Source: Arthrobacter citreus (GTDB lineage: Bacteria; Bacillota; Bacilli; Bacillales; Bacillaceae_G). From it: DNA of 64,000 bases. The position numbers were made by a program, and so were the translations under genes. Below are positions 35,806-40,880 of the stretch, in pieces (the first letter of the stretch is position 1; each line of letters opens with the position of its first letter). The notes under the pieces were generated by a model, which did not search any database, was not told the DNA's origin, and saw nothing but the letters and a program-made list of their open reading frames with translations. The stretch is taken from the NCBI GenBank assembly GCA_013200995.1, contig CP053688.1, positions 3,658,001-3,722,000 on the forward strand. Direction: 5' to 3'.

Positions 35806-37107
35806 ATGAAAAAGTTTATACAGGTTTACAAAAGTTTTTCTATATTAGAGAAAAGCATACTTCTTTGTTTTCTCTTACCTCCATTAGGTATGTTGTTACT
35901 ATTGGTTATTGGGCTACAAACACTTTATACTCATTGGTTTATTAATAAGCGTTTCATTTATTCAATTAGTTCGTATTTTTTCTTATGCCTTCTTATTTCT
36001 ACACTTGGTGCTGCTCTTTTAGATAGAAATGGTTTATATTTACTAGTCAGTATCCTAATTCTTGGCTACTGGGGCTTATATTGTAGGATTTTAGGATCGG
36101 AAAGAAGTCAATTATTTCAAAGGTTTCGTTTAATCATAATCTTCGGGGGCGTTTATAGTTGTGTAATAGGATGGATATCCAAATGGTTAGTATTTCCTAA
36201 GGCCATTGACTATTTATTAGGTACTGTATTGTTTTGGGATGCTAGACCAATACATTTTAACCGTCTGATTGGTTGTGCTTACAATCCAAATTTTAATGTG
36301 TATATTTTATTAATTGCTATTTCTTTTCTGTTCGGTAGCTTACTCGCTAGCATTCGAAAGAAACATTACAAATGTTTAGCTTGGCAGCTTCCAATTCAGC
36401 TCTTACTTAGTTACGGAGTTTTTCTAACTGGCTCTAGAGCTGGCTTTGCAACGATGATTTCAATTTATTTGCTATTTATCTTCAGACTAAATCGAGTACT
36501 TTTCTTTACATGCTCTTTCATTGGCCTTATCTTTTATAAATTTTTGATTTATATAATGCCAAGAGCAGATTCTGTTATCCAGGCAAGCCAAAAAAGAGTA
36601 GATATCTGGAAAAACTCATATAACATATGGGAAAACCACCCATTCTTTGGTGTGACGCCAATCGGTTTTGGTCGAGAATATTTCATGCAATATAATCAAT
36701 ACATACCACATGCCCATAATATATTACTTGGTATGTTTGCAGAATATGGAACATTAGGTGGGCTAGCTTTCCTAATACTTGCTAGTGTAAATATTGCAAA
36801 ATGCATTCATTTATTCTTTTTTAAACTTAATAAGAAGAGTTTAGTGAACAGCTTTATACTTGGATTGCCCATTATCTTGTTTACGGGGATTTTTGATGAG
36901 CCGATATTCTCTCCACAAATTGGCTTTTTAACGGTTGTCTTCCTCGGATGCTGGGATCATTATTCAAAACGTATTCAATATAATATAGAAATTTCTTCAC
37001 TCCATAGAAGTATTTACGGTAGCACGGCTAGAATCGTCGTCAGTTCTTACACAATATTTCATTATTTAAAATCAAAAATTATTAGTAATAAATATAATAA
37101 TTTATAA
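35806..37107 (+). CDS. O-antigen ligase/polymerase-like membrane protein
   Basis: The 433-residue protein has about 11 membrane helices. The motif LTGSRAGFATMISIYLLF and the later HAHNILLGMFAEYGTLGGLAFL are the two conserved parts of the Wzy/WaaL (O-antigen ligase) family, which join or polymerise lipid-linked sugars on the outer face of the membrane. Such proteins in Gram-positives act in capsule, teichuronic acid or exopolysaccharide synthesis. No glycosyltransferase genes accompany it. The ATG at 35806 follows AAAGAGG. The 350 bases before it are very AT-rich and hold only the murQP promoter and no gene I can see. Confidence 0.8.
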   Translation: MKKFIQVYKSFSILEKSILLCFLLPPLGMLLLLVIGLQTLYTHWFINKRFIYSISSYFFLCLLISTLGAALLDRNGLYLLVSILILGYWGLYCRILGSERSQLFQRFRLIIIFGGVYSCVIGWISKWLVFPKAIDYLLGTVLFWDARPIHFNRLIGCAYNPNFNVYILLIAISFLFGSLLASIRKKHYKCLAWQLPIQLLLSYGVFLTGSRAGFATMISIYLLFIFRLNRVLFFTCSFIGLIFYKFLIYIMPRADSVIQASQKRVDIWKNSYNIWENHPFFGVTPIGFGREYFMQYNQYIPHAHNILLGMFAEYGTLGGLAFLILASVNIAKCIHLFFFKLNKKSLVNSFILGLPIILFTGIFDEPIFSPQIGFLTVVFLGCWDHYSKRIQYNIEISSLHRSIYGSTARIVVSSYTIFHYLKSKIISNKYNNL

Positions 37108-37231: not shown

Positions 37232-38527
37232 TTATGATATTTTTTTCGTAGATTGCACTTCTACTACTACATCTCGCTTTGTTAAGAATAGATTTAAAAT
37301 AATTGCCGTTAATGACCCGGTTACGATGCCGTTTTGCATTAACATTTTTAAGAAGTCCGGTAGTTGATCAAACATTTGAGGTAGCGTTGCCGAACCTAAT
37401 CCAATTGCTATGCTACAAGCTGCGATTAGTAAGTTATCGCCTTTTCCTAAATCAACTTCTGAAAGAATTGATATTCCAGCAGCTGCTACAGAACCAAACA
37501 TAACAATCATTGCTCCACCAAGAACGGCATTTGGAATAACTGTCGTTAATGCTGCTAGTTTAGGTAATAATCCTAAAATGACCATGATACTTCCCGCGGC
37601 GTAGATCACTTCGCGAGACTTAACTTTTGTAAGTGAGATTAGACCAACGTTTTGAGAAAAAGCCGTGTATGGAAATGCATTAAAAATTCCACCGAGCATA
37701 ATCGCAAGTCCTTCTGAGCGTAAGCCATTTACGATCTGATCCTGTTTTACTTTTTGGTTAGTCGCTTTCCCAACTGCAAGATATACCCCAGTCGATTCCA
37801 CCATACTAACAATGCACACAATAATCATTGTAATTATGGCTGTATAACTGATTTTTGGAGCTCCAAAATAAAATGGTTGAGCAATACTAAACCACGAAGC
37901 TTCCGATACGCTCGAAAAATGAACAATCCCCATTGCGTATCCTGCGATTGTTCCAACTACTAAACCAACAAGTACTGAAATCGTGCGTAAAAATCCTTTA
38001 GCCCATCGATTTATGACTAAAATGACTACAAGTGTAAGAAGTGCTAATAATAAATTGTGTTCTTGGCCAAAGTCTGCACTCCCTTGACCGCCCGCTGCAT
38101 TATTCATAGCTACTGGTATAAGAGAAAGTCCAATAATCGTTACAACTGATCCTGTTACAATCGTAGGGAAAAACTTTAAAAGCTTTCCGTAAAAAGGCGC
38201 AGCTACTATAACAAATATCCCAGAAATAATAATTGCCCCATAAGCTGTTGGTAAATTTGAAGTAGATGCAATAGCTATAATTGGTCCTACCGCAGTAAAG
38301 GTACAACCTAAAACAACCGGTAATTTGCTACCAAAGTATTTTGTCCCCATACTTTGTAGGATTGTTGCGATTCCGCAAGTAAATAAATCGGCTGCGATCA
38401 GATAAGCAATCTGAGCAGGGCTCAGTTTAAGTGCTCCACCAATAATAAGCGGTACAACGACTGCACCTGCGTACATGGCCATTACGTGCTGAAAACCTAA
38501 TGTAAATGCTTTTTGTTTACTTAACAA
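37232..38527 (-). CDS. pbuX: xanthine/guanine-type nucleobase permease (NCS2)
   Basis: The 431-residue protein has 12-14 membrane helices of the nucleobase-cation-symport 2 family. Signatures are GFQHVMAMYAGAVVVPLIIGG at the N-terminus, STGVYLAVGK with VNGLRSEGLAIMLGGIFNAFPYTAFSQNVGLI in the middle, and TNQKVKQDQIVNGL. These match PbuX-type xanthine permeases more than uracil permeases. The TTG at 38527 follows AAAGGGAG. The leader contains a tandem guanine and PRPP riboswitch, which supports a purine substrate. Confidence 0.92.
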   Translation of the reverse strand: MLSKQKAFTLGFQHVMAMYAGAVVVPLIIGGALKLSPAQIAYLIAADLFTCGIATILQSMGTKYFGSKLPVVLGCTFTAVGPIIAIASTSNLPTAYGAIIISGIFVIVAAPFYGKLLKFFPTIVTGSVVTIIGLSLIPVAMNNAAGGQGSADFGQEHNLLLALLTLVVILVINRWAKGFLRTISVLVGLVVGTIAGYAMGIVHFSSVSEASWFSIAQPFYFGAPKISYTAIITMIIVCIVSMVESTGVYLAVGKATNQKVKQDQIVNGLRSEGLAIMLGGIFNAFPYTAFSQNVGLISLTKVKSREVIYAAGSIMVILGLLPKLAALTTVIPNAVLGGAMIVMFGSVAAAGISILSEVDLGKGDNLLIAACSIAIGLGSATLPQMFDQLPDFLKMLMQNGIVTGSLTAIILNLFLTKRDVVVEVQSTKKIS

Positions 38528-38600: not shown

Positions 38601-38650
38601 AAAAAAAGACAGGCTCCACTTGAGTCTGTTTCTCTCAAGTGAAACCTGTC
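38601..38650 (-). terminator. riboswitch-controlled terminator before pbuX
   Basis: GACAGGTTTCACTTGAG and CTCAAGTGGAGCCTGTC on the minus strand form a long stem, followed by seven T residues. It lies directly after the PRPP aptamer and is the likely expression platform. Confidence 0.9.
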
Positions 38651-38750
38651 CTTCTGGGTTTTTATCCCTAATGGTGTAGCACTAATGTGCCCACATCGCT
38701 CGGACCAGCCATATGTCATAGACAAGTATGCGGAACCCTAGATGTGCTTT
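38651..38750 (-). promoter_or_regulatory. PRPP riboswitch aptamer (ykkC subtype 2b type)
   Basis: Read on the minus strand, it has the ykkC signatures CTAGGGTTCCG (38741-38731), GGCTGGTCCGAGCG, and GGGATAAAAACCC (38668-38656). CACATC and GATGTG form the basal stem, and GCAC-ATTA-GTGC a small hairpin. The ykkC family has guanidine, ppGpp and PRPP classes; a purine aptamer directly upstream is known for the PRPP class, so this class is chosen. The motif call is firm, the ligand is by context. Confidence 0.85.
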
Positions 38751-38751
38751 C

Positions 38752-38822
38752 ACTCATAGTCGGTCGATTATAGTGGTCGTCCGGTAGAAACTTATGGGCC
38801 ATATCCCCATGATTATATGAGT
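38752..38822 (-). promoter_or_regulatory. guanine-class purine riboswitch aptamer
   Basis: On the minus strand ACTCATATAATC, GGATATGG, AAGTTTCTACC and CGACTATGAGT occur in the order of the purine riboswitch. P1 pairs ACTCATA and TATGAGT; P2 is ATGGG with CCCAT; P3 is CGGACGA with TCGACCG (one mismatch). The J3/1 base that sets specificity is C (ACTATG), which means guanine, hypoxanthine or xanthine, not adenine. Confidence 0.93.
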
Positions 38823-38846: not shown

Positions 38847-38875
38847 ATGTTACACAAGCTTTTCAATATTTTCAA
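38847..38875 (-). promoter_or_regulatory. possible promoter of the riboswitch-pbuX transcript
   Basis: TTGAAA (38875-38870) and TAACAT (38852-38847) are 17 bases apart, some 25 bases before the guanine aptamer. The -10 box is weak. Confidence 0.45.
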
Positions 38876-39048: not shown

Positions 39049-39852
39049 TTATGTTCTGCGCATATATGCTTTTACAGTTAATGGTGCAAATATTGCTACG
39101 ATTACAGCAGCACCAATTAATGAAATGATTAAATCTGAACCTGCAGTTCCAGTGTTCGTAAGATTTCTTACTGCAGTTATTAGATGAGAAACTGGGTTTA
39201 TTTTTACAAACCACTGAAGCCAATTTGGCATTGTATCTACTGGTACAAAAGCATTTGAAAGGAATGTTAATGGGAATAGTGCAAGCATTGATATCCCTTG
39301 TACACTTGAAGCCGTACGTGCAATTACTCCAAAAAAGGCAAAAATCCAGCTAATTGCCCAAGAGCATACAATGACAAGAAGTCCGGCTAATGCTACGTAA
39401 CCTAATCCGCCTTCTGGACGATATCCCATAATATATCCCATACTAAAAGTAAGTACAGTAGCAATCGTATAACGAATAGTATCTGCTAATAGTGCTCCTG
39501 CTAGTGGGGCAATACGTGCTATTGGAAGTGACTTAAATCGGTCGAATACGCCTTTGTCCATATCTTCCCGCAATTGTACACCCGTAACGATTGATGTAGT
39601 AATTACAGTCTGCACTAAGATCCCTGGTATGATTACTGGCAAGTAGCTCTTAACATCTCCTGAGATTGCTCCGCCAAATATATAAGTAAACATCAGTGTG
39701 AAAATAATTGGTTGTAGTGTAACATCAAACAATTGTTCAGGTGTCCGCTTAATCTTTAGAACTCCACGATAGGCCATTGTAAACGAGTTTTTTACAGTTT
39801 GCTTGAAACTCGTTCTATTTTTTAGCTCACGATACGCAGTTGAAGTACTCAT
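39049..39852 (-). CDS. DrrB-like ABC-2 type export permease
   Basis: The 267-residue membrane protein has six helices of the ABC-2 family, with the motif VQTVITTSIVTGVQLREDMDKGVFDRFKSLPIAR in the middle and PLTFLSNAFVPVDTMPNWLQWFVKINPVSHLI near the end. This is the DrrB/daunorubicin-resistance pattern. It overlaps the ATPase gene by four bases (ATGA) and forms a two-gene exporter with it. The substrate is unknown: it may be a drug or a lipid. Confidence 0.88.
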   Translation of the reverse strand: MSTSTAYRELKNRTSFKQTVKNSFTMAYRGVLKIKRTPEQLFDVTLQPIIFTLMFTYIFGGAISGDVKSYLPVIIPGILVQTVITTSIVTGVQLREDMDKGVFDRFKSLPIARIAPLAGALLADTIRYTIATVLTFSMGYIMGYRPEGGLGYVALAGLLVIVCSWAISWIFAFFGVIARTASSVQGISMLALFPLTFLSNAFVPVDTMPNWLQWFVKINPVSHLITAVRNLTNTGTAGSDLIISLIGAAVIVAIFAPLTVKAYMRRT

Positions 39853-40880
39853 GCTTTAACTCCCTCCATTTCTTTTGATTTATCAAACTCCTTTGAACCA
39901 TCATTTTCTAAACCATTTCCAGTAATAGTAAGGAATACTTCATCAAGCGTAGGCTTTTGTACGCTCATTTCTACTAATTGGATACCGGCATCACGTAAAG
40001 CAATTAGTAGATCAGTTACTAGGTCAGCGTCCGCCATAGGAGCCGTAATCTTTCCTTCTTCTGGTTTTACATTTGACTTTACTTTTAGAACTCGCTCTAC
40101 AGTTAGACGAGCTTCTTGAATATCCCTAACGTCTTGGATTTTTAATTGTAATGAAGAAGTTCCAACTGAAGCTTTCAATTCATCAACGGTACCTTCTGCT
40201 ACTACATGACCACGGTCAATAACAGCAACTCGATCTGCTAGTTCATCCGCCTCTTGAAGGTACTGTGTAGTAAGTAACACCGTTGAACCGCTTTTCACTA
40301 AACGACGAATTGTGTCCCACATTTGATTACGTGTACGAGGATCCAATCCAGTTGTTGGTTCATCTAAGAAGATAAGTGGTGGCTGAGCAATTAAACTTGC
40401 CGCCAAGTCTAGTCTACGGCGCATCCCACCTGAGAAATTTTTCAGTGGGCGTTTTGCAGCTTCCGTTAAATCAAACTCCTCTAATAAATCAGCTGCTTTC
40501 TTACGTGCCTCCGCTCTTCCTAAGCCAAGTAATCTTGAGAAAATAATAAGATTCTCCGTTGCACTTAAAGACTCATCAACTGATGCATACTGACCAGTAA
40601 CTCCAATTAATTGACGTACAATTTGAGCCTCTTTTAATACATCATATCCAAATATTTGTGCAGTACCTGCGTCCTGTCGAAGTAACGTAGCTAACATTCT
40701 AATCGTTGTTGTTTTCCCTGCTCCATTTGGTCCTAATACACCATAAATACTACCTGCACGAACATTTAAATCTACTCCGTCGACTGCACGATTTTCACCA
40801 AATGTTTTAACTAATCCGCGTGCTTCTACTGCCAAATCTCCATTATTTGGGGTAATTATTTTTTTGTTTATAAATTCCAA
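39849..40880 (-). CDS. DrrA-like ABC transporter ATP-binding protein
   Basis: The 343-residue protein has Walker A GPNGAGKTTTIR (about 53-64), the signature NFSGGMRRRLDLA and Walker B LIFLDEPTTGLD, with a C-terminal extension of about 110 residues ending SVQKPTLDEVFLTITGNG, the mark of DrrA-type ATPases. The TTG at 40880 follows GAAGGAGG. A clear promoter is not seen in the 350 bases upstream, which otherwise hold only the helD terminator. Confidence 0.92.
   Translation of the reverse strand: MEFINKKIITPNNGDLAVEARGLVKTFGENRAVDGVDLNVRAGSIYGVLGPNGAGKTTTIRMLATLLRQDAGTAQIFGYDVLKEAQIVRQLIGVTGQYASVDESLSATENLIIFSRLLGLGRAEARKKAADLLEEFDLTEAAKRPLKNFSGGMRRRLDLAASLIAQPPLIFLDEPTTGLDPRTRNQMWDTIRRLVKSGSTVLLTTQYLQEADELADRVAVIDRGHVVAEGTVDELKASVGTSSLQLKIQDVRDIQEARLTVERVLKVKSNVKPEEGKITAPMADADLVTDLLIALRDAGIQLVEMSVQKPTLDEVFLTITGNGLENDGSKEFDKSKEMEGVKA

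Follow-up and report, generated by a model that had tools for sequence, protein, structure and literature searches.

A tandem riboswitch for guanine and phosphoribosyl pyrophosphate (PRPP) very probably governs transcription of the xanthine permease gene pbuX in Arthrobacter citreus, acting through one shared terminator. The leader lies on the minus strand of a 64,000-nucleotide stretch of contig CP053688.1 (positions 3,658,001 to 3,722,000; here the window). The original prediction, made from the bare sequence, had placed a guanine-class aptamer, then a ykkC-type aptamer and a single terminator at 38601..38822, and those coordinates were right. The analysis supports a tandem of a guanine-class and a PRPP-type aptamer, one terminator and a putative xanthine permease gene. 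The aptamers, shared bases, terminator and gene are established by the sequence, while the identity of the two ligands, the way in which each response runs and the behavior of the gate as IMPLY would follow from published work on this class. The RNA class is already known; what differs here is the gene context, purine uptake and not synthesis.

Architecture of the pbuX leader

The features of the leader and its gene are as follows.

38822-38601, minus strand: tandem leader with guanine-class aptamer, ykkC-scaffold aptamer and terminator (Rfam and a model built here)
38752..38822, minus strand: guanine-class aptamer, from P1 (38822-38816 with 38758-38752) to J3/1 (RF00167)
38635..38759, minus strand: putative ykkC subtype 2b (PRPP-type) aptamer with P0, P1, P1a/b, P2 and P3 (RF00442 below cut-off; model R1)
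38748..38756, minus strand: P0 5' strand (UGAGUGAAA), of which 38756-38752 also belong to guanine P1
38636..38644, minus strand: P0 3' strand (UUUCACUUG), entirely within the terminator 5' arm
38601..38650, minus strand: intrinsic terminator, stem 38650-38634 with 38624-38608, then U-run 38607-38601 (fold)
37232..38527, minus strand: pbuX, NCS2 family xanthine permease, 431 amino acids, TTG start (TIGR03173)
38847..38875, minus strand: candidate sigma-A promoter TTGAAA-17-TAACAT (consensus scan and conservation in the genus)

The first aptamer is a match to the RF00167 Purine family (38840-38737, minus strand; 72.8 bits against a cut-off of 37). Its J3/1 reads GACUA, in which the C is the base expected for guanine and not adenine, and an adenine variant was rejected on this ground. 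The A-A mismatch predicted in the guanine P3 is present (GGACG/CGACC) and is common to all 10 aligned leaders of the genus Gottfriedia. At least 11 purine aptamers occur in the same genome, from the scoring of 150 of 911 first-look candidates. One of them (L008 1501-1600, G000:C1:4610671-4610770) has GAUUA in place of GACUA, which we take to be adenine-like, and by eye precedes an amidohydrolase-like open reading frame (ORF). Purine aptamers with long leaders also stand before HD-domain-like and nucleoside phosphorylase-like ORFs (L005 and L006, by eye).

Only 5 nt (38751-38747) separate the two P1 stems, much as the original prediction had described, so that there is no room for a terminator between the aptamers. 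The one after them folds with its flanks at -35.4 kcal/mol (z -8.4) and ends in seven U. A simple terminator scan found none at the leader, probably because its loop limit is 8 and the loop here has 9 nt. None of 200 shuffles was as stable as the whole leader (z -4.5), and chance structure was rejected for both leader and terminator. The promoter consensus scan gave 2 matches against 1.5 expected in shuffles, no better than chance, but both candidate hexamers are unchanged across all 10 aligned leaders of the genus.

The gene downstream matches NCBIfam TIGR03173 pbuX at 541.7 bits (cut-off 414.15), in line with the permease type that had been predicted. The proteins of solved structure related to it are permeases of the uracil, uric acid-xanthine and SLC23 types, and family membership points to xanthine as the substrate.

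Shared bases and the proposed gate

P0 of the second aptamer pairs 38756-38748 with 38644-38636, and both of its strands have a competing use. Five of its bases, 38756-38752, are shared with the 3' strand of guanine P1, and nine, 38644-38636, with the 5' arm of the terminator, which also contains the bases matched to A101 to G105. This sharing of bases between P1 and P0 and between P0 and the terminator is the anatomy of the published IMPLY gate: P0 and guanine P1 are mutually exclusive, and the single shared terminator overlaps the PRPP aptamer.

The leader resembles the Bacillus megaterium codA tandem (PMC5912903) in aptamer order, in the P1/P0 overlap and in having a single terminator that overlaps the PRPP aptamer; the 5-nt gap falls within the 5 to 7 nt described there as typical. 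It differs from that tandem in its gene, pbuX. It is also like the Thermoanaerobacter mathranii PRPP riboswitch, itself in tandem (PMC6031431), in the named contact residues, the P0 helix and the mutual exclusion with guanine P1, with residue numbers assigned by motif spacing. Published work counts 127 guanine-PRPP tandems (PMC5912903) and later 192 (PMC9481103), and a 2022 review names this tandem as the only known natural IMPLY gate of RNA (PMC9481103).

By this model, guanine binding in the absence of PRPP would lock P1 and withhold five bases from P0, leaving P0 unable to hold the terminator 5' arm, and the terminator would then form and transcription stop. Binding of PRPP would close P0 and P3, sequester the terminator 5' arm and break the outer part of guanine P1, allowing transcription to proceed even with guanine present. 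The net logic would turn pbuX off solely at high guanine and low PRPP. In physiological terms, xanthine import would continue while PRPP, its salvage co-substrate, is plentiful.

Folding energies, which exclude ligand and tertiary terms, suit such a scheme. In a transcript cut before the terminator 3' arm, the P0-aptamer fold (-48.3 kcal/mol) and the guanine-P1 fold (-47.4) are nearly equal, at about 1 kcal/mol apart, so the ligands can decide between them; a 4-bp P0 compatible with guanine P1 is less stable (-43.2). Once the 3' arm is present, the terminator fold wins by about 20 kcal/mol (-74.8 versus -54.7), and the choice must therefore fall during transcription. Co-transcriptional choice is usual in other switches of this type.

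The arrangement recurs in relatives. A pattern-based search through genome contigs turned up 111 loci, which together with the window hold 114 core matches; 66 of these have a guanine-type aptamer upstream, as identified by regular expression. A terminator-like hairpin over the same arm was scored, crudely, in 64 of the 66 tandems, with at least four T in 52. Across 62 aligned matches, one of them (L220, 40 bits) a weak second match, both partners change in 20 of 30 pairs, where shuffles give 11.6 and slid controls 5 to 9, in an alignment that was fitted to the proposed structure. For the two P0 helices, 93.0 and 98.4 percent of the cells show pairing.

Ligand of the second aptamer

The covariance-model search proposed in the original prediction was carried out for both aptamers. 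In Rfam the second one is matched only by RF00442 Guanidine-I (38752-38649, minus strand; 51.2 bits, E 3.5e-8), and it is the sole RF00442 match in its genome at E up to 10. Model R1, built here from 32 tandem sequences with the window among the training rows, scores it at 126.4 bits (38759-38635).

Published residues discriminate within the ykkC scaffold: a pyrimidine at 49 distinguishes subtype 2 from guanidine-I, and G96 distinguishes PRPP from ppGpp (guanosine tetraphosphate) aptamers (PMC6031431). The window has C 38698 at the first site and G 38654 at the second, as in subtype 2b and not subtype 2a, which lacks G96; these numbers were transferred by motif spacing via CACC and AGG, not via the crystal RNA sequence. 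All 54 aligned relatives keep the equivalent of G96. Guanidine-I was rejected as the subtype, the RF00442 score lying under the gathering score of 63 and C standing where A is expected at 49; three guanidine-I rows have A there.

A check free of residue numbering grouped aptamers by downstream gene context and parsed them by regular expression. In all 53 parsed PRPP-side rows the P3 strand and GG are separated by four bases, the second of which is G. Of these rows, 25 are of the xpt/pbuX kind, made up of 17 xpt rows, 7 from Gottfriedia and the window itself, and 28 are others, namely 8 codA-like, 10 of 11 pur tandems, 1 pur singlet and 9 of 10 AzgA/PbuG-like permeases. The signature occurs in none of the 10 parsed ilv-linked rows, the ppGpp context, which have three bases instead. 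In three of these ten (L194, L228 and L233) G is still second of three, so the absence of G96 there depends on the alignment. All 66 tandems of the scan carry the PRPP signature. The expression did not parse L039 and L183 (PRPP context), L195 to L198 (ilv) or three guanidine-I rows, and the comparison was made apart from the clostridial-class and related loci L199, L201, L203, L205, L206, L209, L210, L177 and L184.

The context genes above cut-off are ilvE (L231, L240), purD (L172) and purE (L176, L178). The codA-like ORF of L222, which ends at the locus edge, scores 234 bits for cytosine deaminase against a cut-off of 403, and purC (L186) scores 121 against 189.9. Pfam names purL in L064 and L073, and the four AzgA/PbuG-like permeases tested match PF00860; for the remaining pur and ilv genes, for codA in the seven other loci and for the AzgA/PbuG-like class, names were assigned from similarity or by eye. 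Taken together, the discriminating residues and the sorting of relatives by gene context support PRPP over ppGpp or guanidine, as had been predicted.

Several observations weigh against a PRPP-responsive gate of the published kind. Rfam, scanned at gathering level, does not report the second aptamer. Eight codA-like tandems (L220 to L227, assumed to be of the same kind as codA) have the 3' core AGGCGGGUAGG, compared with AGAAGGACAGG here; relative to them, the window group is one base longer between CACC and P3 and reads A at both 98 and 101, against their C and G. Folded without constraints, the cut transcript (-50.7 kcal/mol) matches neither state exactly. Swapping P0 strands among the 66 relatives barely alters helix length (8.03 own, 7.96 swapped), nor does it do much over 36 distinct tail pairs (7.58 versus 7.33); the P0 strands are so conserved within the xpt/pbuX group that covariation there is weak.

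These and other points bear on what the ykkC half might be instead. A ppGpp aptamer of subtype 2a, which would make a guanine-ppGpp gate, is unlikely. R1 does also match ilv-linked RNAs, but the four-base spacer of the window is that of all 28 codA, pur and other-permease aptamers and of none parsed beside ilv genes, and no guanine aptamer was found, by regular expression and by eye, in the 80 to 100 bases before 14 ilv-linked elements. At 98, 101 and 102 the xpt/pbuX group departs from the codA tandems and from many of the pur ones, and an extra base before P3 is frequent in it, as would suit a new subtype, marked by its own 3' core, for some other ligand. We regard this as very improbable: the published contact residues A5, G6, G48, C49, C75, C77, C78, G96, A101, A103, G104 and G105 (PMC6031431) can all be matched in the window, the purL tandems L064 and L073 share A101, and position 98 covaries with its partner (pair 138-157).

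Under a further alternative, the ykkC half would be what is left of a decayed aptamer, with guanine alone regulating pbuX. The Rfam score below cut-off is what such decay could produce, but core and tail show little or no change across the 10 genus leaders while the P1b loop varies, and the constancy of the G96 equivalent likewise makes a remnant scarcely credible. A PRPP-type aptamer remains the preferred identity of the second half.

Gene context, distribution and origin

The first genes after the 66 tandems are xpt then pbuX in 35, xpt with the locus ending soon after in 4, pbuX alone in 9 (8 Gottfriedia-group loci and the window), an AzgA/PbuG-like permease in 9, purL in 2, purE in 1 and a Bmp-like or nucleoside-phosphorylase-like gene in 2 (L098, L116); 4 have no assignment, in 3 because the locus ends. 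Thus 57 of 66 precede xpt, pbuX or other purine permeases. The scan pattern misses variants such as the codA-like group, and its counts are not population frequencies. The other 48 core matches comprise 37 guanidine-I-like, 7 other and 4 with the signature but failing the upstream test (L031, L062, L096 and L124), of which L062 has A at 49 and resembles guanidine-I.

Other members of the scaffold were seen along the way. Two PRPP-type elements lie about 880 bases apart in one pur cluster (L186 1501-1607 and 2387-2493; L188 1501-1608 and 2383-2490). Microbacterium ykkC-like elements (L029, L066, L105) have C after CCGAG, at site 49, and a different 3' core. The genome with the Tumebacillus flagellatus locus L121 holds ykkC relatives that differ in core and tail and precede transporter-like and ABC ATPase-like genes (L180, L181).

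Searches with R1 extended this picture. In the order of the L023 genome, taken as Paenibacillales, 60 of 392 genomes match at 1e-12, and all 30 loci inspected are tandems with the signature before xpt and pbuX. With these and the 192 published tandems (PMC9481103), such tandems are less rare than the original prediction had stated. The window's own order gives 40 of 397 genomes at 1e-9, 9 of the genus and 31 others; 17 of the latter were examined and comprise 8 codA-like tandems, 8 ilvE and 1 ilvB-like. The class of a clostridial relative gives 31 of 291 genomes at 1e-3, including ilv-linked and guanidine-type elements. An RF00442 search across the order matched 168 of 299 genomes, mostly at guanidine-I grade, and was not used.

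Tandems of Paenibacillus, Cohnella, Brevibacillus, Alicyclobacillus and Tumebacillus (e.g., L023) show the same RNA signature before xpt and pbuX, and over the 35 loci with both genes pbuX is 63 to 86 percent identical to that of the window. In Paenibacillus-type tandems xpt stands between leader and pbuX, whereas the single xpt match of the window genome lies elsewhere with its own single guanine aptamer and, by eye, a terminator-like hairpin after it. Bacillus subtilis xpt-pbuX reportedly has a single guanine riboswitch, a guanine OFF control of the same pathway, and, unlike the window tandem, is said to lack a PRPP override. Around the window leader, DrrB-like and DrrA-like ABC exporter genes lie upstream (39049-40880, minus strand), and a 433-amino-acid ORF with no NCBIfam match lies downstream of pbuX on the opposite strand (35806-37107, plus).

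The leader is present in 10 of 13 Gottfriedia genomes, with the aptamer cores and most of the terminator stem conserved. The same 10 carry orthologous pbuX at 94 to 100 percent identity (94 to 96 in the 9 further genomes); of the three without the leader, one has a 55 percent pbuX relative and two have none at E 1e-60. A plasmid search with the leader gave one 41-base match. Among the best 120 of 7977 PbuX relatives, many of them nameless, the named ones beyond the Gottfriedia group are Paenibacillus or Cohnella, at 78 to 86 percent identity, apart from one labeled Bacillus whose cluster is also named Paenibacillus agri. Identity and distribution are consistent with transfer of leader and pbuX without xpt.

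The biological sense of the gate has been argued from de novo purine genes up to inosine monophosphate (PMC5912903), and a rationale favoring adenosine over guanosine triphosphate was repeated (PMC5912904). In the available main texts of PMC5912903 and PMC9481103 the words xpt, pbuX and permease are absent, although xpt/pbuX tandems may already stand in the supplementary alignments without comment.

It is an evenly balanced proposition that in the Bacilli examined the gate is mainly a co-substrate check on xanthine salvage (xpt-pbuX to xanthosine and guanosine monophosphates), so that the published guanylate-sparing explanation would fail for the largest group, and that the Gottfriedia gate moved with pbuX alone, probably from Paenibacillaceae, to control uptake apart from the salvage enzyme. 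The conserved group before xanthine salvage and purine permease genes makes a different case, in which PRPP, as co-substrate, would determine whether import pays. With a single guanine switch on xpt and the double switch on pbuX, the window genome offers a clean comparison.
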